This document shows positions 4,507-23,536 of a stretch of 26,014 nt of DNA, piece after piece; position 1 is the stretch's first letter, and each line of letters begins with the position of its first letter. Made by a program: the position numbers and the translations under genes. Origin of the DNA: a virus; IMG/VR virus record IMGVR_UViG_3300034106_004295, positions 1 through 26,014 of that record. One strand, written 5' to 3'. The notes beneath the pieces were generated by a model. It made no database searches. It worked only from the letters and a program-made list of their open reading frames with translations, and was not told the DNA's origin.

Positions 4507-4745
4507 TTGAGATCTGGGCAGCAGTGGTGGGCGCCTGCTGCGCTATCGGTGCCAGCAGCGTTGGCAACTTCATGCGGCGCGATGACGAGGCCGCCAAGTC
4601 TGTGGTGCGCCTGACTGCGGCGGTCGAGCACATTGCCGGTGAGGTCAGCTTGCTCCGCGCCGAGATCAAGAGCGACCGCCAGGAGCTGTACCCACGGCTG
4701 AACACATTGGAGCAGCGGGTCGCCGTGCTGGAGTCACGCCAGTGA
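4503..4745 (+). CDS. Small membrane protein with coiled coil (holin or inner-spanin candidate)
   Basis: An 80-residue protein from GTG 4503. Residues 2-23 (IEIWAAVVGACCAIGASSVG) form one membrane helix; the rest is a charged heptad-like coiled coil (VVRLTAAVEHIAGEVSLLRAEI...LNTLEQRVAVLESR). The gene directly precedes the endolysin and overlaps its start by GTGA. An N-terminal anchor plus coiled coil is the layout of inner-membrane spanins, while a single-helix membrane protein beside an endolysin can also be a holin. I cannot decide between the two; no outer spanin lipoprotein was seen. Confidence 0.65.
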   Translation: MIEIWAAVVGACCAIGASSVGNFMRRDDEAAKSVVRLTAAVEHIAGEVSLLRAEIKSDRQELYPRLNTLEQRVAVLESRQ

Positions 4746-5917
4746 TCCGGCTGACAGACGCGGCGCGGCATTACCGCGAGCTGCCGCATCAGATCGCCGC
4801 GTGGAATGCCCTGCAGGAGAAGGTGCCGCCGCAGCTGCTGGAGGAGTTTGCGCAGCTGTACCGCTCCGCACCAGCAACCAAGGACAGCCCACCACCGGCC
4901 TGGCTGGCGCCAGCGCTGAAGATCATCCAGACCTGGGAAGGCTGCCGCTTGAGTGCCTACAAGGACGCAGCAGGCGTGCCAACCATCGGCTACGGCACCA
5001 CCCGCCATGGCAATGGTGCGGTGCGGATGGGCGAGACGATCAGTCAGGCCCAGGCCGATGAGTTGCTGCGCAACGATGTCGAGAATCTGTTTGGCCCTGG
5101 CGTGCTGCAGCTGCTGCCGCTGGCCGCAAAGTGGCGCCGTGAGCAGGTGGCAGCGTTGATCAGCTTTGCCTACAACGTCGGCCTGGGGGCATTGGAAACA
5201 AGCACGCTGCGCAAGCGGCTGCTGGCTGGCGAAGAACCCTGCAAGGTGGTGCGCGAGGAGCTGCCCCGCTGGCGTCATGCCGGTGAGGCCGTGCTGCCGG
5301 GACTGGAGCGCCGCCGCGCTGCAGAGGTGGCCTTGTTCTGCGGGACTGCCCCCCCAGTGCAAGCAGCGTCGCCAAGCAATCCGCTGAAGGTGCCGTACTA
5401 CAGCCAGCGCGATAGCCAGGTGGCTGGTCAAGCCTCGCGCATGTGCTTCAGCAGCAGCTGCGCCATGCTCGTGGCCACCGTGCGGCCGGGACTGCTGAGC
5501 GGCCCCAACGGCGATGATCAATACCTGAAGCGGGTGATGCAGTTCGGCGACACCACCGACCCTGCCGCGCAGATCAAGGCACTGGCCAGCTACGGCATCA
5601 AGGCCAGCTTTCGACAGGATTGCACGTGGAGCGACCTGGAGCAGCAGATCGCCAAGGGCGTGCCGGTGCCGTGCGGCTTCCTGCATCACGGCCCCAGCTC
5701 TGCACCCACCGGCGGCGGGCACTGGTTGATCGTGATCGGCACCACGCCAACGGCGGTGATCGTCAACGATCCCTGGGGCGAGATGCTGGTTGCCGAGGGC
5801 ACCTATGCCGGCAACCGTGGCGCTGGCCTGGCCTACAGCCGCAAGAACTGGGGGCCGAGGTGGATGGTGGAAGGCCCCGGCACTGGCTGGGCGATTATCG
5901 CTAGCCCAGCAACCTAG
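4742..5917 (+). CDS. Endolysin: GH24 lysozyme plus C39-like cysteine peptidase
   Basis: A 391-residue two-domain lysin. Residues about 55-200 are a T4-lysozyme-type (GH24) muramidase: E66, D75 and T81 in 'TWEGCRLSAYKDAAGVPTIG' keep the 9- and 6-residue spacing of the T4 Glu/Asp/Thr catalytic set. Residues about 212-391 look like a C39-type papain-fold peptidase: Cys in 'MCFSSSCAM' (235 or 240), His327 in 'GGGHWLIVIG', and Asp343 in 'VNDPWGE'. The first domain should cut the glycan strand; the second may cut peptide bonds in the wall. The N-terminal 50 residues are helical, with no signal peptide, so release depends on a holin. GTG start overlaps the upstream stop. Confidence 0.88.
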   Translation: MIRLTDAARHYRELPHQIAAWNALQEKVPPQLLEEFAQLYRSAPATKDSPPPAWLAPALKIIQTWEGCRLSAYKDAAGVPTIGYGTTRHGNGAVRMGETISQAQADELLRNDVENLFGPGVLQLLPLAAKWRREQVAALISFAYNVGLGALETSTLRKRLLAGEEPCKVVREELPRWRHAGEAVLPGLERRRAAEVALFCGTAPPVQAASPSNPLKVPYYSQRDSQVAGQASRMCFSSSCAMLVATVRPGLLSGPNGDDQYLKRVMQFGDTTDPAAQIKALASYGIKASFRQDCTWSDLEQQIAKGVPVPCGFLHHGPSSAPTGGGHWLIVIGTTPTAVIVNDPWGEMLVAEGTYAGNRGAGLAYSRKNWGPRWMVEGPGTGWAIIASPAT

Positions 5918-5927
5918 AGGCAGCACC

Positions 5928-6797
5928 ATGGCGCTGCGTCTTGTGACTTTATCCTCAATCCGCAGGACGCCCGAGCTGCTAGAGCTGCGCATCCCTTATT
6001 CAACCTTTAGCGAAACAGCGACATTCCTGCTGCTGAGTGACATCCACTTAGACAACCCGAAGTGTGACCGCAAGCTGCTAAGTAAACACCTCGATGAATG
6101 CCGCGCCCAGAACGGCCACGTCCTTATGTTCGGAGACGTGCTCTGTTTGATGCAAGGTAAGAAAGACCGCAGAGCAAGCAAGGGCGACATTCGCCCCGAG
6201 CATTTAGGCGGCAACTATTTCGACCTTGTATTTAGTGAGGCGGCAGAGTTCTTCAAGCCATGGCAAGACATTATTTTGATGGCAGGCGACGGCAATCATG
6301 AAACAGCAGTTAGCAGCAACCAGGAAATCGACCCGCTGGAGAATGTTGTGCGGCTGATGCGCAACAACGGCAGCAACATTGAGCACATGGGCTATCAGGG
6401 TTGGCTTAGGTTCAGCTTTACACAAGACGGCAATAGCAGGACCAGGCGCTGCATGTTGTTCTTCCATCACGGCGCATGGGGTGGCATTGTTACGAAGGGC
6501 ACCATGGGCGGTGGCCGCTATGCCTCGATCGCTCCAGACGCCGACATTCTCGTAAATGGCCACAACCACGAGCGCAGTGTTGTCGCACACTCCTGTTATC
6601 GCGTCGATCAAAACGGCCGCGCCTGGGTGGAGCAGCGCTGGCACGTTCAATGCGGCACCTACAAGCAAGAATTCGGAGGAACTGGCGGTTGGGCGGTGGA
6701 ACGCATCGTGATGCCAAAATCGCTGGGTGGCATCTGGCTCACACTGCGTCCCCGCAATCGCGGGGGCGTTGAAATCACTTGCACCCCGACTGTGTAG
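5928..6797 (+). CDS. Calcineurin-like metallophosphoesterase
   Basis: A 289-residue protein from ATG 5928, 10 bases after the endolysin stop, with AGAGG at 5916-5920 as ribosome site. The metallophosphoesterase motifs are complete and in order: D38-x-H40 (LSDIHLD), GD at 69-70, GNHE at 122-125, HH at 180-181 and GHNH at 211-214. It should bind two metal ions and cleave a phosphoester; the substrate cannot be read (DNA ends, RNA or a nucleotide signal are all possible). It is richer in A/T than its neighbours, suggesting separate origin. Its last 23 bases overlap a convergent small gene. Upstream in-frame starts inside the endolysin are less likely. Confidence 0.85.
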   Translation: MALRLVTLSSIRRTPELLELRIPYSTFSETATFLLLSDIHLDNPKCDRKLLSKHLDECRAQNGHVLMFGDVLCLMQGKKDRRASKGDIRPEHLGGNYFDLVFSEAAEFFKPWQDIILMAGDGNHETAVSSNQEIDPLENVVRLMRNNGSNIEHMGYQGWLRFSFTQDGNSRTRRCMLFFHHGAWGGIVTKGTMGGGRYASIAPDADILVNGHNHERSVVAHSCYRVDQNGRAWVEQRWHVQCGTYKQEFGGTGGWAVERIVMPKSLGGIWLTLRPRNRGGVEITCTPTV

Positions 6798-6975: not shown

Positions 6976-7188
6976 ATGACGTGGGGCGAGTGGATGATCC
7001 CGCAGCCGGGGCCAGAGCACCTGTTGACGCTGGAGCGTCAGCGGCGAGCTGTTGAGGGCTACGACTTAGCGCAGGCGCAGAAGCTGCTGCTGCAGCTGTG
7101 TGAGTTGGCCATGCACCAGGATCTGATCATCCGCAGCGCTACACGGCATATTGCAGCTCTGGAGTGCCAAGCAGCTCTGCGCGATTGA
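6976..7188 (+). CDS. Small helical protein, unknown (70 aa)
   Basis: ATG 6976 opens a 70-residue, mostly helical protein (LTLERQRRAVEGYDLAQAQ..., MHQDLIIRSATRHIAALE). The pattern 'LxxLxxLAMxQDxIIRxAxxHIxxLE' resembles short hypothetical proteins in cyanobacterial phages. Its last 50 bases overlap the 3' end of the sigma-factor gene on the other strand, so the two messages would be antisense there. No function assigned. Confidence 0.6.
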   Translation: MTWGEWMIPQPGPEHLLTLERQRRAVEGYDLAQAQKLLLQLCELAMHQDLIIRSATRHIAALECQAALRD

Positions 7189-8047
7189 GCTGCAGGCGCA
7201 GGCGACGCAAGGCATTGCGATGCCTCAGGCTGATCGCCTGGCGGGACACGCCAAACTCCTGAGACAGTGAGTTGAGGCTGCAGCTTTCGCCGTTGGGGTT
7301 CATGTAGAGCCGCTGCACGATGACGCGATCCATCTCGGGCAGATCGGCCAGCAGTTGCTGCACCAATGGCGCCATGTGGCCGTATTCGTCCAGGTCATTG
7401 GTGGCCACCTCGTCGGCGATCAGCTCCAGCAGGGTTGACGACTCCGAGCGGCTGTCGTTGCGGGCGCGATCGTCCAGGGAGATCACCGGGGCGCCGTGCG
7501 GCAAATAGCCGCGCAGGGTGTGCGGGCTGGTGTTGCAGTGCTCGGCCATCTGTTCCAGCGTCGGCCGGCGGCCATGCTGCCGCTCGTAAGTGGTCATGTA
7601 GTCGAATGCCTTCTTGATCACCAAGATGGCGTTATCCGGCAGGCGGATCGTGCGGCTCTTGCTGCTGAGGCTGCGGTTGATGCTCTGGCGGATCCAGTTG
7701 AAGGCATAGGTCGAGAACTTGTAACCCCGCGTCGCGTCGTATTTGACGATCGCCCGCTCCAGGCCGATCAGGCCCTCTTGGATCAGGTCGTCAAGGCCGA
7801 GAGTGCCGGTGAAACGCTGATAGCGGTTCGCCATGTGAACCACCATGCGGATGTTGGAGAGGAAGAAGCGGTCGTAGGCGCGGCGACCTCGCCGAATGAT
7901 GGCCTGCTCCCGTGTTGAGGGGTTGGCCGCATTGCGCAGCAGCAGCCATTGCTGGATGTGGCGGCTGAAGATGATCTCCTGCTCAGCGGTCAGCAGTGGG
8001 TAGTTGTGCGATTGGTGCAGCAGCCAATCGGCAGAGCTGTCGTGCAT
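7139..8047 (-). CDS. Phage-borne sigma-70 family factor, cyanobacterial group-2-like
   Basis: About 302 residues from ATG 8047; GTG 8065 would add six. The ATG lies one base past the upstream gene's stop, so I prefer it. Counted from the GTG, region 2 spans about 65-140 with 'LDDLIQEGLIGLERAIVKYD' and 'RGYKFSTYAFNWIRQSINR', the core-binding and -10 recognition part in the cyanobacterial sigma style. Region 3 is about 145-200. Region 4 is about 236-297, with a -35 recognition helix-turn-helix (SLNSLSQEFGVSRQAISLRH). Region 1.1 is absent. It would redirect host RNA polymerase, most simply to late genes, since it ends the leftward early operon. The final 50 bases overlap a convergent gene. A captured host sigma factor is the alternative origin. 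Confidence 0.9.
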   Translation of the reverse strand: MHDSSADWLLHQSHNYPLLTAEQEIIFSRHIQQWLLLRNAANPSTREQAIIRRGRRAYDRFFLSNIRMVVHMANRYQRFTGTLGLDDLIQEGLIGLERAIVKYDATRGYKFSTYAFNWIRQSINRSLSSKSRTIRLPDNAILVIKKAFDYMTTYERQHGRRPTLEQMAEHCNTSPHTLRGYLPHGAPVISLDDRARNDSRSESSTLLELIADEVATNDLDEYGHMAPLVQQLLADLPEMDRVIVQRLYMNPNGESCSLNSLSQEFGVSRQAISLRHRNALRRLRLQLNRAELLGTPELQYAV

Positions 8048-8048
8048 G

Positions 8049-8213
8049 TCAGGGCTTGATTTCACGGGACTTCATGGCCAGCAGCCACGACGCAAATTGC
8101 GTCATAAGGGCAGCGGTCTGGTTGTTGATCGGGGCGGCGTGCGGATAGGAATCGCGCCACCATTCAGCCAGCAGATCCTCGATTGCTGGGGTTGGCTTTG
8201 CTGAGGCAGTCAT
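8049..8213 (-). CDS. Small protein upstream of the sigma factor (54 aa)
   Basis: ATG 8213 gives 54 residues: MTASAKPTPAIEDLLAEWWR, then a soluble helical remainder ending in MKSREIKP. Its start lies 50 bases inside the previous gene, in another frame, and its stop is one base before the sigma ATG, so coupling is likely. It is short but fills an otherwise empty gap in a packed operon. Function unknown; a sigma-factor partner is only a guess from position. Confidence 0.55.
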   Translation of the reverse strand: MTASAKPTPAIEDLLAEWWRDSYPHAAPINNQTAALMTQFASWLLAMKSREIKP

Positions 8214-8352
8214 AGGCCGTGGTGAGGGTGAGCGCGGTGTAAAGGCCGCGCATGGGGTGAGGCTTGATGTTGCTGCCGCGACCGTTGAGCATGTAGGCCG
8301 CTTCCAGGAGGTCTTGGCGTGCCTGCTGCACGAGCGGATCGCAAGGATTCAT
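8164..8352 (-). CDS. Small hypothetical protein (62 aa)
   Basis: ATG 8352 overlaps the stop of the upstream gene (ATGA). The 62-residue product begins MNPCDPLVQQARQDLLEAAY and is helical without a membrane segment. It overlaps the next ORF by 50 bases. No known motif; kept because of tight coupling and protein-like composition. Confidence 0.55.
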   Translation of the reverse strand: MNPCDPLVQQARQDLLEAAYMLNGRGSNIKPHPMRGLYTALTLTTAYDCLSKANPSNRGSAG

Positions 8353-8684
8353 CAGATGACGGTGCGTGTCTGGTAGTTCGGGTCGGTCTCGTCCAGGCCG
8401 TGGACTTCAGGGCCAAACCCGGTGGCCAGCAGTTCAGGGCTGAGGCCATCGGGTCTAGGTTGCTGCCGCTTGGCGTCCTGATCGCTCAGGGCCGCAAGCC
8501 AGCTGTCCAAGCGTTCCCGCATTGGCAAACCTTTGGGCACCTTGAGGAACCGCCGTAGCTCTGGCAGGTCTCGGATGAACACGCAGGCGCCGTCGTTGTA
8601 GGCGATGAAGCACCGGCCGTTGTGATCGCGGTAGGTCTCAACGGCCTGGTAGCGACTGAGCGCCAGACGCTCACGCTGGGCCAT
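8352..8684 (-). CDS. Hypothetical protein of the early operon (110 aa)
   Basis: ATG 8684 overlaps the upstream stop by ATGA, so it is preferred over the TTG one codon earlier. The N-terminal half looks like a small beta domain ('ETYRDHNGRCFIAYNDGACVF'-style strands with a Gly turn), then 'IRDLPELRRFLKVPKG' and a charged, Pro-rich tail. No family recognised. It sits between the SSB-like candidate and small genes leading to the sigma factor, so it is probably an early protein. Confidence 0.65.
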   Translation of the reverse strand: MAQRERLALSRYQAVETYRDHNGRCFIAYNDGACVFIRDLPELRRFLKVPKGLPMRERLDSWLAALSDQDAKRQQPRPDGLSPELLATGFGPEVHGLDETDPNYQTRTVI

Positions 8685-9013
8685 CAAAAGGGCATGTTGG
8701 CCGGCAGGGCTGCGGTGTTGGCAGCCGGGTTGATAGTGCCGAAGTCGCCGCCGTTGCCCTCGCGGCCTTTGCCGTTGATGTAGAAGCCTTGGACTTCCAC
8801 CTCGGCCTTCTTGTCGTAGTCCCAGACCTTGCCGGTCTTCTGGCGCTCGTTGTCGTCAGCGCTGTTCATGATGTATTGCGCCAAGGCCACCGCCGAATCG
8901 CGGGGAATGAACAGGCTCAGCGCACGCGGCTGCTTGCCGGTCTGGTCGTAGCGGTTGTCGCTGGTGCTCCACTTAAGGGGGATTGGCAGGGCGGCTTTGA
9001 AATCAGAAGACAT
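8684..9013 (-). CDS. Hypothetical protein, possible ssDNA-binding protein (109 aa)
   Basis: ATG 9013 lies 2 bases after the RHH gene's stop. The 109-residue protein opens with KAALPIPLKWSTSDNRYDQ and has strand-like segments (ALSLFIPRDSAVALAQYIM, VEVQGFYINGKG). A flexible Gly/Asn/Ala-rich tail ends in NMPF. A flexible tail ending in PF recalls the partner-binding tip of bacterial SSB (usually acidic, ending IPF), and the gene shares an operon with a single-strand annealing protein. The tail here lacks the acidic residues, so the SSB idea is tentative. Confidence 0.6.
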   Translation of the reverse strand: MSSDFKAALPIPLKWSTSDNRYDQTGKQPRALSLFIPRDSAVALAQYIMNSADDNERQKTGKVWDYDKKAEVEVQGFYINGKGREGNGGDFGTINPAANTAALPANMPF

Positions 9014-9015
9014 GA

Positions 9016-9207
9016 TCAGTTGATGGAAGGAAGCTTGAAGTAACGGCGCAGGCAGTCATGCACGGCGCCGCTGGGGGTGAGCTGATGCTCGTCTGCGTGC
9101 TGGCGAATCAGCTCCATCACGTCAGGCCAGAGGTGAACACCGACCTGGACGCTGCGGGTGCTGCGGGCATAGCGGCGACGTGGCTGGGCCTCGCTAGTGC
9201 TAGTCAT
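9016..9207 (-). CDS. Ribbon-helix-helix DNA-binding protein (early operon)
   Basis: The ATG at 9207 is chosen because ATGACTAG overlaps the upstream stop by 8 bases; an upstream ATG at 9255 would add 16 residues. The 63-residue product has a basic N terminus (EAQPRRRYARSTR) and then a CopG/Arc-like core: strand 'RSVQVGVHL', helix 'PDVMELIRQHADEH', helix 'TPSGAVHDCLRRYF'. RHH dimers bind operators through the strand. It may control its own operon or the promoters to the right. It is distinct from the RHH gene at 12971. Confidence 0.7.
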   Translation of the reverse strand: MTSTSEAQPRRRYARSTRSVQVGVHLWPDVMELIRQHADEHQLTPSGAVHDCLRRYFKLPSIN

Positions 9208-9436
9208 CGCAGGCACACCAGAGTTGAGGGCTGGAGCGGTGGGCATAGAAATCAACAGGGCGAATTGACAAGCCGTCAGCTTGCACTGCAGCGATTTCCT
9301 TTAGGCGAAGCCAAATCGTTTTGGCATGGTTAAAGCTAGAAAAGCGATGTTCCAGCGGTACAGCGTCCGCATTTGCATCCCATTGCAGCGTTGTGCCGCA
9401 AATCTGTGTCAAATAGAAGCCATCACGATTCAGCAG
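9200..9436 (-). CDS. Hypothetical protein with unclear start (about 78 aa)
   Basis: The minus-strand frame ending at 9200 has clear protein character from about residue CWLLNRDGFYLTQICG to the end (FSSFNHAKTIWLRLKE, GLSIRPVDFYAH), but no ATG, GTG or TTG sits near its apparent beginning. The nearest usual starts lie deep inside the upstream gene, where the frame reads as noise. CTG codons at 9436 and 9433 are possible, or it may be reached by frameshift from the 77-residue gene that ends at 9423. It is somewhat richer in A/T than its neighbours. Coordinates at the 5' end are therefore approximate. Confidence 0.5.
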   Translation of the reverse strand: MLNRDGFYLTQICGTTLQWDANADAVPLEHRFSSFNHAKTIWLRLKEIAAVQADGLSIRPVDFYAHRSSPQLWCACDD

Positions 9437-9656
9437 CCAGCAGACCCGGTGCAGATACGGAGCGCTGGAGCAGGTTGAGATCGGCGCGGATCCGCTGGAG
9501 CAATGCCCGCTTGGCGCAGATGTTGCCATAGGCCGTGATGCGGGCATCGTATGCAGCATTTGCGTAAGCCTCGTGGATTGTTCGCTCAAGGCCCTCGCAG
9601 GCAGCGGATACATGCGCGAGAGCAAGTCGGATGTGGTCATCAGGCGGCTGCGGCAT
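9423..9656 (-). CDS. Hypothetical helical protein (77 aa)
   Basis: ATG 9656 starts 17 bases before the end of the annealing-protein gene, in another frame. The product is helical (HIRLALAHVSAACEGLERTI, ANAAYDARITAYGNICAKR) with no membrane helix. No family recognised. Its tight overlap with the SSAP gene suggests a shared message and possibly a shared recombination role. Confidence 0.65.
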   Translation of the reverse strand: MPQPPDDHIRLALAHVSAACEGLERTIHEAYANAAYDARITAYGNICAKRALLQRIRADLNLLQRSVSAPGLLAAES

Positions 9657-10338
9657 GGATCTGTGCCATCAGGAAATCGCGGTGCGCGGCGGTCTTGATG
9701 TAGTCGGCGGCCTTCTTGTCAGCCGGCAGGCAGAAGTGCTCCTGAAAAGCGGCGACCACACCGGTGCGCTGCTCTTCGCTGAGCCTGACCACCGCCTGCA
9801 CCAGCTCCTGCACTTCGGCAGCGCTGAGGCGTACGCCGCCAGGGGCTGGGTTGCCGGGTAGGCGGTTGGCTGGGGTGGTTTTGGCGGGCTGCGCCTTGGC
9901 AGCGCTAGCCGCCGGTGCGTCGTCATCGCGCATGGGGTTTTCCACCTCGACACGCGCCCACAGCTCGTAGCCAAGGCCAAAGGTGAAGGCCGCAGCGGTG
10001 CAGAGGCAGCGGCGGTGGGTGTCGGTCAGCGTCCGCGCCGTAATGCGCTCAGACGCAATGGGGTTGTTGCGGTTGTCCATGCACGCCTGCGGAAAATCAG
10101 GCGTGATCTGGTCGCCGTTCTGGAAATAGCCGACCACGTAGCCGGAGCCATCAGGCGCCTGCCAGGCGTGGCCACCATCGGGGGCAGTGCGCAGCGCAAA
10201 CTGCCAGCCGGGGGCATGGACGTGGAGCAGGTGGGCGATTTTGGCCCAGTTCACATAGTCAGCGGCATAGCTGCCGGTGCCTTTGCTGGAGATGTCATCG
10301 GATGTGATGACACCTCCCAAGTTGGGGAAGTCAGTCAT
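9640..10338 (-). CDS. Single-strand annealing protein, Sak3/DUF1071-like
   Basis: A 232-residue protein that heads the leftward operon. Residues about 20-135 fit the DUF1071/Sak3 pattern: 'YVNWAKIAHLL' (the YxxWAxaw part), a strand region with 'SGYVVGYF', 'QACMDNRNNPI' (the xxMDxRNK part), then 'RTLTDTHRRCLCTAAAFTFGLGYELWA' as the family's NxxxxRCLxKAxxxxGLGLYLW helix. A low-complexity Ala/Pro linker and a helical C-terminal domain follow. Such proteins anneal complementary single strands in phage recombination, usually with a nuclease and an SSB; a PD-(D/E)XK nuclease and RusA are encoded elsewhere in this window. Family call is by motif reading, not search. Confidence 0.75.
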   Translation of the reverse strand: MTDFPNLGGVITSDDISSKGTGSYAADYVNWAKIAHLLHVHAPGWQFALRTAPDGGHAWQAPDGSGYVVGYFQNGDQITPDFPQACMDNRNNPIASERITARTLTDTHRRCLCTAAAFTFGLGYELWARVEVENPMRDDDAPAASAAKAQPAKTTPANRLPGNPAPGGVRLSAAEVQELVQAVVRLSEEQRTGVVAAFQEHFCLPADKKAADYIKTAAHRDFLMAQIHAAAA

Positions 10339-10405
10339 GGATGCGGGTTCTCGGTGCCGCGTCGCTGCGGCATCCCGATCACACTAGGCTAGCTTCCCCT
10401 AGTAG
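10339..10405 (-). promoter_or_regulatory. Intergenic control segment before the leftward operon
   Basis: This 67-base gap between the repressor-like gene and the SSAP gene holds a perfect 6-bp hairpin, TGCCGC (10355-10360) and GCGGCA (10367-10372), with no T run after it. It also has a CTAG-rich element near 10381-10405 (GGCTAGCTTCCCCTAG) resembling GGTAGCTTACCCCTAG before the repressor-like gene. Likely promoter/operator; no clear -35/-10 pair seen. Confidence 0.5.
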
Positions 10406-11065
10406 TCAAGCCTTCTCCCACGCCGCTAGCGCATCCGCAACCGGGTCGCTGTTGGTGCCGCAGATCGCTTCCCATTCCTGCGGTGTCCAGCTGTGCCAAC
10501 CCGACAGGACATTGCGCAGCAGATCGCGCTGGCTGGCCGTTAGGCCCTGGCAGCAGGCATCCAGCTCGCGCCAGCCGGCCGCAGGCGTGACCCCCTTGGC
10601 CGCAGCAATCGACTCAAAGCGGGCTTGGTGCTCACGGCTGAGGTCTGCCGCTTCCTCAACCGATAGGGGCTTTGGGCCGGTGGCCCAGTCCGGTGCGTCC
10701 AGCTCGCCCACGAAGTGGCCAAAGAACTCCATGGCACCCCACGGCTTGCCGCTCGGGTCGGCGATGGCTTCGGACTCCTTGAGCCGGTCCTTCAGCTGAC
10801 GGTCTGTGATGCCGCTGTAGTCCCCCTCGGCCACGCGGACATTGGCCAGGGCCAGCTGGATGAACGTGAGCGGCGAGGGCTGCTCGGTCTTGGCGTTCTG
10901 CAGGCGGTTAAAAGAGGAATCGCGCACGGCGGGAAAGCCGGCCTGCTCGCCCCACTCGTGCAGCGTGCTGTGAATCCAGCCGTTGCGGTTGGCCCAGGCC
11001 GTCAGGGTGCGGCCAAAGCGTTGGCGGGCGGCTAGCGAGGGGTGCTGGTACCGGTCGTGTTCCAT
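10406..11065 (-). CDS. Repressor-like protein with XRE-type helix-turn-helix candidate
   Basis: ATG 11065 (219 residues) is preferred; the frame runs up to 11152 but those residues overlap the operator and the recombinase end. Residues about 14-76 look like an XRE-type DNA-binding domain: 'FGRTLTAWANRNGW', 'HSTLHEWGEQAGF', 'SSFNRLQNAKTEQPSP' and 'LTFIQLALAN'. The rest is helical and acidic without a recognisable LexA-like peptidase Ser/Lys pair. Beside the recombinase and a shared operator-like element, it is the best candidate for the lysogeny repressor. That role is inferred. Confidence 0.6.
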   Translation of the reverse strand: MEHDRYQHPSLAARQRFGRTLTAWANRNGWIHSTLHEWGEQAGFPAVRDSSFNRLQNAKTEQPSPLTFIQLALANVRVAEGDYSGITDRQLKDRLKESEAIADPSGKPWGAMEFFGHFVGELDAPDWATGPKPLSVEEAADLSREHQARFESIAAAKGVTPAAGWRELDACCQGLTASQRDLLRNVLSGWHSWTPQEWEAICGTNSDPVADALAAWEKA

Positions 11066-11070
11066 TGGTT

Positions 11071-11100
11071 TGGCTGCGGTAGTGGGTAGCTTACCCCTAG
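11071..11100 (-). promoter_or_regulatory. Operator-like element before the repressor-like gene
   Basis: The segment 11071-11100 aligns with 12564-12593 before the recombinase: GGCT(G/A)CGGTAGT(G/A)GGTAGC, then CTTACCCCTA or CCTGCCCTA. It ends 6 bases from the repressor-like ATG and abuts the recombinase stop. A shared site for one regulator is likely. Confidence 0.6.
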
Positions 11101-12515
11101 GCAGGCACAGCCGCATCGCCGTGTTTATCCAGCCGCAGCACCACGGTTTCAACTGCGCGATCGCGCACCAGCACCCGTTCCACGTAATCCGTGAACATGC
11201 GCCGCGTCAGCTGCGGGTCGTTCTGTGCCAGCTCCCAGTAGCGCTGATCCCCGAGCGCTTGGCGCATCTGTTCGGGCGTGTGCTCCATTTCCTCGTTCCT
11301 CGCCTGCTCCTGCAGCAGCACATCCAGTCGCTGCAGCTTCCGATCAATCGCGGCCTGCAACTCTGGGTCGGCCATCGCCCGCAGCTCGCGAATCTGGCGT
11401 TCCAGCCGCTGCGCTTCCACCAAGCGTTCGGCACTGAGGCCGTGGCCTACCTGCACCGCCACCAGCTCCTCGCGTGCCTGGCGCAGTCGCGCCCAGATCG
11501 CAGCCTTCACCACGGCCACCTTGATCCTGTTCTTCGGCTTGGCGCTGCAGGTGAAGTACACGCAGCGCAGATACACCGGCCCCAGGCGGACGTGGTGCTG
11601 GTAGCCCATGACCCGACCGCAATGGGCGCAATGCACCAGCTTCGTCAATTCCCGCACGTAGCCAGGCAGCAGAGGCGAGCGCTTGCGGTTGGCGTGCTCT
11701 GCCAGCAAGGCTGCCGCCTGCGCCTGCTCCAACGGCGTGATCAGCGGCTCATGGGCGCCGGGGATGACCTCGCTGTAGACGCCAGGCTTTTTGCGTCGCG
11801 TCTTCATCCGGCCGTCCTTGTCTCTGTATTTCTCGTCGTGGCCGTAGACTCGGCAGCCGATCAACGACGGATTCACCAGCCAGGCACGCAGGCCGATCAC
11901 GCTGCTCCACTGGCACCTGGGCAGACTTTGCGCCATGCGCAGGGTTGGATTCAGCTGGCCACTTTCCAAGAACTTGGCCATCACGGCGCGGGCGTGCTCG
12001 GCCGTCTCTGGATCCAGCTCGTAGTTGCTGCGGTCCGCATTGAAGCGGTAGCCATACGGGGCGACCGGCCCCAGCGGAATCAGATTGCGCCGCTGAAACG
12101 CTCGGCCGTGGCTGACCCGTTCACTGAGGCGCTCCGTTTCGGCCTGCCCCAGGCTGATCAGCATCCGCGCCACCAGGCGCCCGCCCACCGTGGCCAGATC
12201 CAGCGAGTCATCCAAGGCCAGCAGGCTTGGTGTGTCGTCGGCGCTGAAATAGCTCAGCAGCTGCGCCCCGTGGGCCATGGAGCGGCTGAGGCGATCGAGG
12301 CGGGTGCAGATCACCCGGTCAACTTCACCCCGTTTGCACGCGGCCAGCAGCGCTGCCAGCTGGGGGCGATCGTCGCGGGCGCCGCTCATCACGTCAATGA
12401 ACTCGCGCACCTCCTGACCTGCGGCAGCGCCACGCAGGCGGTCGAGCTGCTGCACCAGCGCCTGCTCCTGTTCTTCGCTACCGGTGGACACGCGGGCATA
12501 CAGGGCAACGCGCAT
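11097..12515 (-). CDS. Large serine recombinase / integrase, XisF-like
   Basis: About 472 residues from ATG 12515 (MRVALYARVST), the usual start point of the family; ATG 12563 would add 16. The resolvase domain has the catalytic Ser in 'YARVSTGSEEQ', followed by 'DRVICTRLDRLSRS'. A recombinase domain ('PLGPVAPYGYRF...' to 'NPSLIGCRVYG') and a Cys4 zinc ribbon (HCAHCGRVMGYQ...LRCVYFTC) follow, then a long coiled coil. This is the large serine recombinase layout, and the style resembles cyanobacterial excision recombinases such as XisF. It should integrate and excise the phage at att sites. A run of nine G (12518-12526) sits just before ATG 12515. Confidence 0.9.
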   Translation of the reverse strand: MRVALYARVSTGSEEQEQALVQQLDRLRGAAAGQEVREFIDVMSGARDDRPQLAALLAACKRGEVDRVICTRLDRLSRSMAHGAQLLSYFSADDTPSLLALDDSLDLATVGGRLVARMLISLGQAETERLSERVSHGRAFQRRNLIPLGPVAPYGYRFNADRSNYELDPETAEHARAVMAKFLESGQLNPTLRMAQSLPRCQWSSVIGLRAWLVNPSLIGCRVYGHDEKYRDKDGRMKTRRKKPGVYSEVIPGAHEPLITPLEQAQAAALLAEHANRKRSPLLPGYVRELTKLVHCAHCGRVMGYQHHVRLGPVYLRCVYFTCSAKPKNRIKVAVVKAAIWARLRQAREELVAVQVGHGLSAERLVEAQRLERQIRELRAMADPELQAAIDRKLQRLDVLLQEQARNEEMEHTPEQMRQALGDQRYWELAQNDPQLTRRMFTDYVERVLVRDRAVETVVLRLDKHGDAAVPA

Positions 12516-12563
12516 CACCCCCCCCCGCGAGGGCTTTTCATTTCGGGCGTTCTCTTGGGCCAT

Positions 12564-12632: not shown

Positions 12633-12884
12633 ATGAACACTGCGACCCTGCCGATTACAGCGCAGCAGATCAGCCGCGCAACCCTCGCTGAACTGCTCGG
12701 CTCCAGCGGCCCTGCTTACGAGGCCCTTGGCGCTGGTGCTGCCGCTGCCCTGGACTGCCTGCGCACTGCGCGGGAGTTCTATGCCCTGCCGCCGGAGCTG
12801 GAGCCTGACCTGCACGCTTTTGCGTTGCACCTGCACGAGGCGCTGGAGGCACTGGAGCGAGCCAAGCGGCAGGTGGGCGCATGA
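12633..12884 (+). CDS. Small helical protein divergent from the recombinase (83 aa)
   Basis: ATG 12633 gives 83 residues, mostly Ala/Leu-rich helices (ISRATLAELLGSSGPAYEAL, HEALEALERAKRQ). An upstream start at 12597 adds 12 residues that overlap the control region. No known motif. It is divergent from the recombinase, so it shares the intergenic control region, and may be an accessory (directionality factor or regulator); that is conjecture. The opposite-strand ORF over the same bases looks like noise. Confidence 0.5.
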   Translation: MNTATLPITAQQISRATLAELLGSSGPAYEALGAGAAAALDCLRTAREFYALPPELEPDLHAFALHLHEALEALERAKRQVGA

Positions 12885-12911
12885 TGCAGATGCGCGGCAG
12901 TCGGGAAATGT

Positions 12912-12949
12912 CGGCTAGCCAAGCCTAGTTTTCAAGAGTTGGCTAGCCG
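12912..12949. repeat. 11-bp perfect inverted repeat with GGCTAGCC core
   Basis: CGGCTAGCCAA (12912-12922) and TTGGCTAGCCG (12939-12949) are perfect inverted copies around 16 bases. Each arm contains the self-complementary GGCTAGCC. It lies in the short gap before the RHH gene at 12971. No T run follows the right arm, so a terminator is unlikely; a dimer-binding operator or a recombinase site are the options. Confidence 0.7.
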
Positions 12950-12970
12950 TCGGCTGGCCCCCTCGACCTC

Positions 12971-13177
12971 ATGACTCCGAACACCGCACCGATGATGCGC
13001 ACGCCCAAGCGGGTGAGTATCACCGTTTCCAATTCCGTCCTTGATCGCCTGCAGCGGCTCAGCGATGAGCAAGGCCGCAGCACCAGCAACCTGGCCGCCC
13101 ACCTGCTGGAGGTGGCCCTTGACGCCATGGAAGGCGCCCCGCCAATCCCGAAACGGTGGCCGAACAAGGCTGCCTGA
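12971..13177 (+). CDS. Ribbon-helix-helix transcriptional regulator (CopG-like)
   Basis: A 68-residue protein from ATG 12971. After a short basic lead it has strand 'RVSITVSNSV', helix 'LDRLQRLSDEQG' and helix 'STSNLAAHLLEVALDAM', a clear MetJ/Arc/CopG pattern. The dimer would bind DNA through the paired strands. The inverted repeat at 12912-12949 lies just upstream, and GGCTACCT repeats lie just downstream past the terminator, so it is a good candidate for binding one or both. It is followed by an intrinsic terminator. Confidence 0.75.
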   Translation: MTPNTAPMMRTPKRVSITVSNSVLDRLQRLSDEQGRSTSNLAAHLLEVALDAMEGAPPIPKRWPNKAA

Positions 13178-13183
13178 TGCCTC

Positions 13184-13203
13184 GGCCCCGACCGGGGCTT
13201 TTT
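13184..13203 (+). terminator. Intrinsic terminator after the RHH gene
   Basis: GCCCC (13185-13189) pairs with GGGGC (13194-13198) around GACC and is followed by TTTTT (13199-13203). It lies 7 bases after the RHH stop codon and separates that gene from the replication operon. Confidence 0.75.
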
Positions 13204-13214
13204 CATGTCAGCCG

Positions 13215-13353
13215 CCTGGCTAGCAGGGCGGGATTCATGGGACGCAGCCAGCGCCGCGCTAGTGGGGTTGATCTGCGGCTAGCTGCCGCTAGTGTCTGAC
13301 GTAGCCGATGGCTACCTCTCGGCTACCTCGCATCACCCTTTCAGCTACCTGCC
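13215..13353 (+). promoter_or_regulatory. Operator-rich control region of the replication operon
   Basis: No gene is seen here. The first half has GCTAG elements at 13218-13225, 13258-13263, 13277-13284 and 13287-13292. The second half has GTAGCC at 13301-13306 facing three direct copies of (G/A)GCTACCT at 13310, 13321 and 13343. Their spacings of 11 and 22 bases put them on one DNA face. The GTG start of the replication gene follows 3 bases after the last copy. I see no convincing -35/-10 pair. Confidence 0.65.
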
Positions 13354-15561: not shown

Positions 15562-15772
15562 CCGCTGATTAGCCGCGCCTAGCTCCCTCTCCCTTCATCC
15601 CATGGCACCATTGGCCTGCCGGGATGGTCGGAATACAACACCCTCACGGGGAATCAGGACAGGGCATGCGGCCCATCGGAATCCCGGCACCCTCTTCCCT
15701 AGTCAGCCCTTGACGGCTGCACTGGGCTAGCCTATTGTCTGAACACGGGGGCGACCCCACCGCATACCAGCC
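15562..15772 (+). promoter_or_regulatory. Intergenic region with a sigma-70-type promoter
   Basis: No convincing gene is seen in these 211 bases. TTGACG (15710-15715), a 17-base spacer and TATTGT (15733-15738) form a good promoter for the next operon of small genes; the spacer contains GGGCTAGCC (15724-15732), which may be an operator. The segment before it holds CTAG elements and C-rich sequence with no other structure I can support. Confidence 0.7.
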
Positions 15773-20854: not shown

Positions 20855-20940
20855 CTCGACATAGCGGAGCCTATGGGCTAGTGTTTGGTAGTCGGAAGCG
20901 ATGGGCAGCGCCCACCACCGACCACCACTGCATTGACCCC

Positions 20941-21129
20941 ATGACCACCATCACCTGCGCAGCCGTGTGGCTGCTGCTGCCGCTGATTGTCCTGATCGGC
21001 GTGGCGCTCTGGCTCAGCGAGAGCCGCCAGCAACGCATCCAACGCCTGCACCGCTCCGGCTACAGCCAGACACGCATCGCCCAGCACCTCAACATCAGCC
21101 GTTATGCCGTGAGGAAAGCCCTGGCCTAG
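20941..21129 (+). CDS. TM plus helix-turn-helix mini-protein (62 aa)
   Basis: ATG 20941 gives 62 residues; a GTG at 20881 would add 20 residues of unlikely composition. Residues about 5-25 (TCAAVWLLLPLIVLIGVALW) are a strong membrane helix. Residues about 38-62 (RSGYSQTRIAQHLNISRYAV) look like a resolvase- or Hin-type helix-turn-helix. A membrane-anchored DNA-binding mini-protein between terL and portal is unusual. The gene follows an 86-base gap with CTAG-bearing inverted sequence (AGCC-TATG-GGCT), where a promoter could sit. Confidence 0.6.
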   Translation: MTTITCAAVWLLLPLIVLIGVALWLSESRQQRIQRLHRSGYSQTRIAQHLNISRYAVRKALA

Positions 21130-23462: not shown

Positions 23463-23536
23463 TCTATAGCGTAAGGGAAGGCTGTGCTGACCCGTGAAGG
23501 CCTGTGGCCGCGTCCCAATCCTCTTAAACCATCATC

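Follow-up and report, generated by a model that had tools for sequence, protein, structure and literature searches.

Among described phage sigma factors, T4 gp55 and SPO1 gp28/gp34 are essential, tested switches that redirect the host core RNA polymerase to later phage promoters (PMC5780444, PMC9429907). The sigma factor analyzed here may share that role, although its role is predicted and the comparison made here is one of role. In cyanosiphoviruses, gene timing has been little studied, and their sigma factors have been noted mainly as host-like extras. S-CBS3 gp29 and S-CBS1 gp27, both named 'rpsD4', are group 2 sigma factors of the same family and in the same genomic slot as the gene described below. 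The report on P-SS2 (PMC2784084) likewise records a group 2 sigma factor in a cyanosiphovirus, ORF113, and proposes that it modulates the host RNA polymerase; ORF113 differs, however, in being very divergent in sequence and in adjoining ssb and dCTP deaminase genes instead of converging on a lysozyme gene. The kind of gene is therefore known, as cyanosiphovirus sigma genes have already been recorded in relatives. What is new here, at the level of sequence comparison, is a variant clade with changed DNA-reading residues, the exchange of sigma genes at one slot, a convergent overlap with an NblA-like gene, and a conserved TTGAC-N17-TAGTGT site.

We analyzed a 26,014-bp virus record from IMG/VR, hereafter the window. 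Its proteins mark it as a contig of a cyanosiphovirus, with KBS-S-2A, S-CBS1, S-CBS3 and S-LBS1 as relatives; because its terminase (54% identical to that of KBS-S-2A) and its Sak protein (46-60% identical to the S-CBS1, S-CBS3 and KBS-S-2A proteins; 45.8% to that of S-CBS3) resemble the proteins of those cyanophages, we take a Synechococcus or Cyanobium-like host to be very probable. Some near-identical contigs extend past the ends of the record, which is therefore probably incomplete. The leftward gene run (Table 1) opens with a serine recombinase, which suggests a temperate potential, and the part that carries the sigma gene has its own promoter-like site. Many GGCTAGCC/GCTAG repeats, possibly operator sites, lie at 12880-13300 in the divergent region between the integrase and the rightward operon. 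The original prediction placed the sigma gene last in the leftward operon, next to late lysis genes. The first half of this description was confirmed, as the run leads from the Sak-like recombinase to the sigma gene, with the lysozyme gene converging from the other side; the second half holds only in part, because the sigma gene does converge on the endolysin gene but an NblA-like gene and a phosphoesterase gene intervene. The latter, a metallophosphoesterase-like gene at ~5893-6797 with a GC content of ~55% against 63%, is missing in the near-identical relatives L002-L004, L017 and L122, and was probably inserted recently between the lysis genes and the NblA-like gene.

Table 1. Features of the window around the sigma gene, with the evidence for each
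Feature	Position	Strand	Evidence
Endolysin (phage lysozyme + C39-like peptidase), the final conserved late gene ahead of the convergence	4742..5917	+	Pfam
NblA-like gene, 70 aa (phycobilisome degradation adaptor family, sub-threshold)	6976..7188	+	Pfam, PDB profile
Sigma-70 family factor, 302 aa	7139..8047	-	Pfam, PHROG 351, NCBIfam, alignment of relatives, AlphaFold
Small 54-aa ORF that stops 1 nt short of the sigma ATG	8049..8213	-	ORF
Small operon ORF, 62 aa	8164..8352	-	ORF
Operon gene, PHROG 37139; homologues in S-CBS3 and S-CBP2	8352..8687	-	PHROG, homology
Operon gene, 109 aa, kept in relatives including G018 and G019	8684..9013	-	ORF, relatives
Operon gene, 79 aa, kept in relatives	9016..9255	-	ORF, relatives
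Operon gene, function not assigned	9200..9640	-	ORF; no family match
Sak-like single-strand annealing protein, first gene of the sigma operon	9640..10338	-	PF06378 (1.3e-6), PHROG
Promoter-like site TTGACT-N17-TAGTGT upstream of the operon from Sak to sigma	10382..10409	-	Motif kept in relatives
Serine recombinase/integrase, upstream in the leftward run	11097..12563	-	Pfam, PHROG, NCBIfam
Promoter-like site TTGACG-N17-TATTGT, GGGG-GCGA-CCCC hairpin leader ~9 nt on	15710..15738	+	Motif comparison

The predicted open frame of 308 aa (7139-8065, minus strand) is present in the ORF list, but homologues begin at the ATG at 8047, so that translation probably starts there, giving 302 aa, rather than at the upstream GTG at 8065. 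Dinucleotide shuffles of the window reach stop-free runs of ~340 codons, so length alone is no proof of a gene; it is homology and dN/dS that mark the sigma gene as real and not a chance frame. The dN/dS values against four relatives (0.09-0.34) indicate purifying selection, that is, divergence under constraint and not decay, and the frame is intact in every relative seen with full coverage. The protein matches PHROG 351 (1.4e-54) and contains Sigma70_r2 (7e-15), r3 (5.9e-6) and r4 (1.4e-7), all above the Pfam cut-offs and in the order that characterizes the sigma-70 family. Region 1.2 gives a weak, sub-threshold match (21.2 bits against a cut-off of 22), and region 1.1, the hallmark of group 1 (housekeeping) sigma factors, is absent in both the Pfam search and the homologue alignment, in which the protein begins at region 1.2; the domain content is thus as first proposed. 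Its top NCBIfam model, TIGR02997 (1.6e-52), represents the cyanobacterial RpoD-like subfamily, which makes the cyanobacterial group 1 and 2 sigma factors the closest host family by profile, and upholds the prediction of a phage-coded factor of cyanobacterial type. Because this is the best model but the score of 178.7 bits lies below the curated cut-off of 384.5, we regard the protein as a divergent relative of that subfamily and not as a member. PDB sigma-A chains match it by both sequence and fold, and the AlphaFold model aligns with these chains at E 8e-14 (Synechococcus Syn7942 SigA, 9dvu, at 2e-13); the model supports a sigma fold, although the whole-chain TM is just 0.39 because the placement of the domains is uncertain.

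The position of the gene recurs in its relatives. The annotated sigma factors of four isolates (S-CBS3 gp29, S-CBS1 gp27, KBS-S-2A CPKG_00011 and S-LBS1 A33) are 32-38% identical to that of the window; each closes the early run or lies close to its end, and the genes that come next point towards it from the lysozyme side. In the window, L007-L009, L012-L014, G018, G019 and these isolates, a sigma gene points towards the endolysin side, and the same position is seen in at least eight IMG/VR lineages. The window gene accordingly belongs to the early-operon sigma type of S-CBS1, S-CBS3 and KBS-S-2A, in which the sigma gene is the distal early gene and converges on lysozyme; the portions of the literature on cyanosiphovirus sigma genes available to us do not remark on this shared position. 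A sigma gene at the end of the early operon across lineages fits a delayed switch, and the proposed timing role is a reasonable prediction. Our best reading, to which we assign a probability of about 0.55, is that a group-2-like phage sigma factor would bind the host core through its conserved region 2 and move part of it to phage promoters as such a delayed switch. A sigma gene is not universal in the wider group: many cousins by structural genes, among them the isolates S-H1 and MED4-184, yielded no sigma match, several of these records being fragments, and phages with 51-69% identical terminases, some near full length, have no clear sigma gene. Because of these cousins, late expression of such a structural module appears to need no sigma factor of its own.

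The occupant of the slot varies among close cousins. G018 has a terminase 81% and a capsid protein 84% identical to those of the window but a sigma factor just 29% identical; in G019, the terminase is 78% and the sigma factor just 34% identical. The sigma factors of these two genomes form a separate clade (100/100) that keeps W433, T440, E585 and R588. L014 carries two tandem sigma genes, one of the window type and the other grouping with S-LBS1 A33 at 100/100, and G041 also has two in tandem, plus a further fragment with an internal TGA. Tandem pairs are located at 6001-7699 of L014 and 8782-10421 of L149. Since near cousins have distant sigma factors and tandem pairs occur, the sequences indicate that non-orthologous sigma genes have been exchanged or stacked at one slot, a behavior first described here. 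The exchangeability of different sigma factors in the slot also suggests that the timing role probably predates any single specificity.

Some cyanosiphovirus papers call the gene host-like (PMC3751600), and a recently captured host sigma factor with no settled phage role would fit that label. The relationships of the protein make such an account very unlikely. Its nearest sequences are phage genes, it is 31-34% identical to cyanobacterial plasmid sigma factors, and a scan of genome contigs gave one distant Armatimonadetes match only. In trees whose host rows were cyanobacterial SigA (PDB chains), plasmid group 2 and Armatimonadetes sigma factors, picocyanobacterial sigma factors not being included, all sampled phage proteins fall outside the sampled hosts with modest support (84/65 and 91/87), the exception being that of Microcystis phage MaAM05, which groups with SigA; the P-SS2 protein was left out of the last tree owing to its long branch. 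The phylogeny thus does not place the gene as a recent intact host gene, and recent host capture is unlikely. An old origin from a picocyanobacterial host, whose sigma factors lie outside the tree sample, may apply.

The residues expected to read DNA were compared with those of cyanobacterial SigA and group 2 sigma factors, in E. coli numbering. Here the original prediction of host-like -10 and -35 recognition fails, as the window protein carries W433N, T440N, H455N, E458L, E585Q, R588S and Q589L, while retaining W434, Q437, R451 and R584. W433, T440, E585 and R588 are invariant among the cyanobacterial sigma factors compared, whereas a few plasmid sigma factors differ at positions 455, 458 and 589. 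All group 1/2 factors compared (SigA; SigB-E) have W433, W434, Q437, T440, R584, E585 and R588, of which the window protein has W434, Q437 and R584 only. It thereby lacks the W-dyad (W433/W434) typical of group 1, with N at 433, and shows N, R, Q and S where host-like group 2 factors have T440, R584, E585 and R588. W433 is the melting wedge at the upstream edge of the bubble, and the W-dyad is invariant in group 1 (PMC4593229); sigma32, which has His at the wedge position 433, opens promoters more weakly (PMC10216364). T440I alters -12 reading, and E585Q and R588H relax -33 specificity (PMC2613000). The sigma factors of S-CBS1, S-CBS3 and KBS-S-2A keep the W-dyad and the RE..R of the -35 helix, that of KBS-S-2A differing at H455; in that of S-LBS1 the W-dyad is intact but the -35 residues are gone. 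The window clade, for its part, has W433N, T440N and, except in L014, E585Q and a changed R588. N433 is common to eleven phage sigma factors, comprising all of the window clade and the L018-L020 clade. Because E585 and R588 are still present in L014, which branches at the base of the window clade, the -35 change probably arose later.

These substitutions bear on two further explanations. Key residues unlike those of active sigma factors could reflect loss of function in a decaying gene; given the intact frames, the dN/dS range and the fixation of W433N in eleven sequences, we consider decay scarcely credible. Alternatively, the protein might be an auxiliary factor that switches on a host stress regulon during infection, much as Bacillus phages carry sporulation-like sigma factors that target host programmes and that lysis does not require (PMC9429907). 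Cyanobacterial RpoD-like ancestry would suit such reprogramming, but the protein is altered at the residues with which host promoters are read, and the gene sits within the core early operon in many lineages and is no loose accessory, so that we think it improbable. For the mimicry of a host stress sigma factor suggested originally, we found nothing in support.

Promoter-like sites offer candidate targets. Upstream of the sigma operon, TTGAC and TANNNT are kept in six lineages (L008, L121, L117, L120, G018 and G019), with an 18-bp spacer in G018 and G019. The pattern TNGAC-N17-TAKTGT, chosen after inspection, occurs 3 times in the window against a shuffle mean of 0.03, the sites being those of the sigma operon itself and of early or insertion promoters, while sigma-lacking cousins mostly have TTGACA-N17/18-TATACT. 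The TAKTGT form may be the signature of promoters that the phage sigma factor reads; it may also merely reflect GC content and ancestry, by which the link is confounded (GC 52-56% vs 57-63%). The same distribution would suit a factor that, instead of acting as a late switch, reinforces early or middle TTGAC-N17-TAKTGT promoters, including that of its own operon, in a feed-forward manner. We hold this to be a possible but doubtful alternative: TTGAC and TANNNT would be readable by host SigA too, and the TAKTGT form is shared by G018 and G019, whose sigma factors are host-like at most recognition positions, which also argues against a tight link to W433N. Separately, a GCGA-tetraloop hairpin, usually followed by ACC, lies ~6-9 nt past the -10 element at 15748-15762 of the window and at 25 places elsewhere. 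Pairing is maintained across differing stems (GGGG/CCCC, GGGA/TCCC, GGCA/TGCC), although pairing was a requirement of the search, and the hairpin may be an element at the 5' terminus of mRNAs that travels with the promoters of accessory genes.

In the intergenic regions of the late operon, compared with those of relatives, no late promoter specific to this sigma factor was found. A site between the terminase (TerL) and portal genes was rejected, as it belongs to a variable insertion: the gap at 20855-20942 is a variable insertion site, and its TCGACA-N17-TAGTGT comes and goes with the insert. The leader of the major capsid gene was likewise rejected, being shared with phages that lack a sigma gene. 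This conserved non-coding leader (23463-23536) has two successive small GC hairpins, occurs in more than 20 contigs, including KBS-S-2A and S-H1, and has no match in Rfam. Scans of the sequence for canonical promoters and terminators gave no excess over shuffles.

The gene that meets the sigma gene tail to tail, overlapping it by 50 bp, is suggestive of a relationship to NblA. Its product matches PF04485 (NblA) with E 1.1e-4 and 23.1 bits, just under the cut-off of 25, and five of the nine members of its family hit this model; a profile search against the PDB places NblA chains at E 0.03-0.19, behind one ribosomal protein (0.013), and a fold search with its model found nothing. We therefore call it NblA-like only. 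In other cyanophages, NblA genes are expressed and have been tied to the breakdown of phycobilisomes (PMC5780444). The neighbors at this place in S-CBS1, KBS-S-2A and S-LBS1 are only 27-34% identical. The tails overlap by 24-98 bp in seven relatives (eight genomes with the window), the S-CBS1 genes abutting, and a terminator scan picked out no terminator at the overlap.

Under the delayed switch that we favor, the sigma protein would appear with a delay because its gene is distal in an operon read from the TTGAC-N17-TAGTGT promoter. With the altered wedge (W433N) and altered -12 and -35 contacts, it would then read promoters not of the host type, for which the TAKTGT -10 form in sigma-encoding phages, including that of the sigma operon itself, is a candidate target. 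Late transcription running past the lysis and NblA-like genes would be antisense to the sigma gene and could limit sigma production. More tentatively, we speculate that the junction of the early and late operons is a fixed slot in which sigma factors with differing DNA-reading residues are swapped or stacked, such that promoter specificity behaves as a swappable cassette, and that the overlapping antisense NblA-like gene couples sigma shut-off to late transcription.

For the cyanosiphoviruses, the comparisons establish a fixed sigma position across deeply diverged phages, a clade with a changed wedge and -35 helix, and the exchange and doubling of sigma genes. If active, these proteins would form a naturally occurring panel of sigma factors of different specificities for a cyanobacterial polymerase, of use in the study of phage timing and as tools for gene expression.
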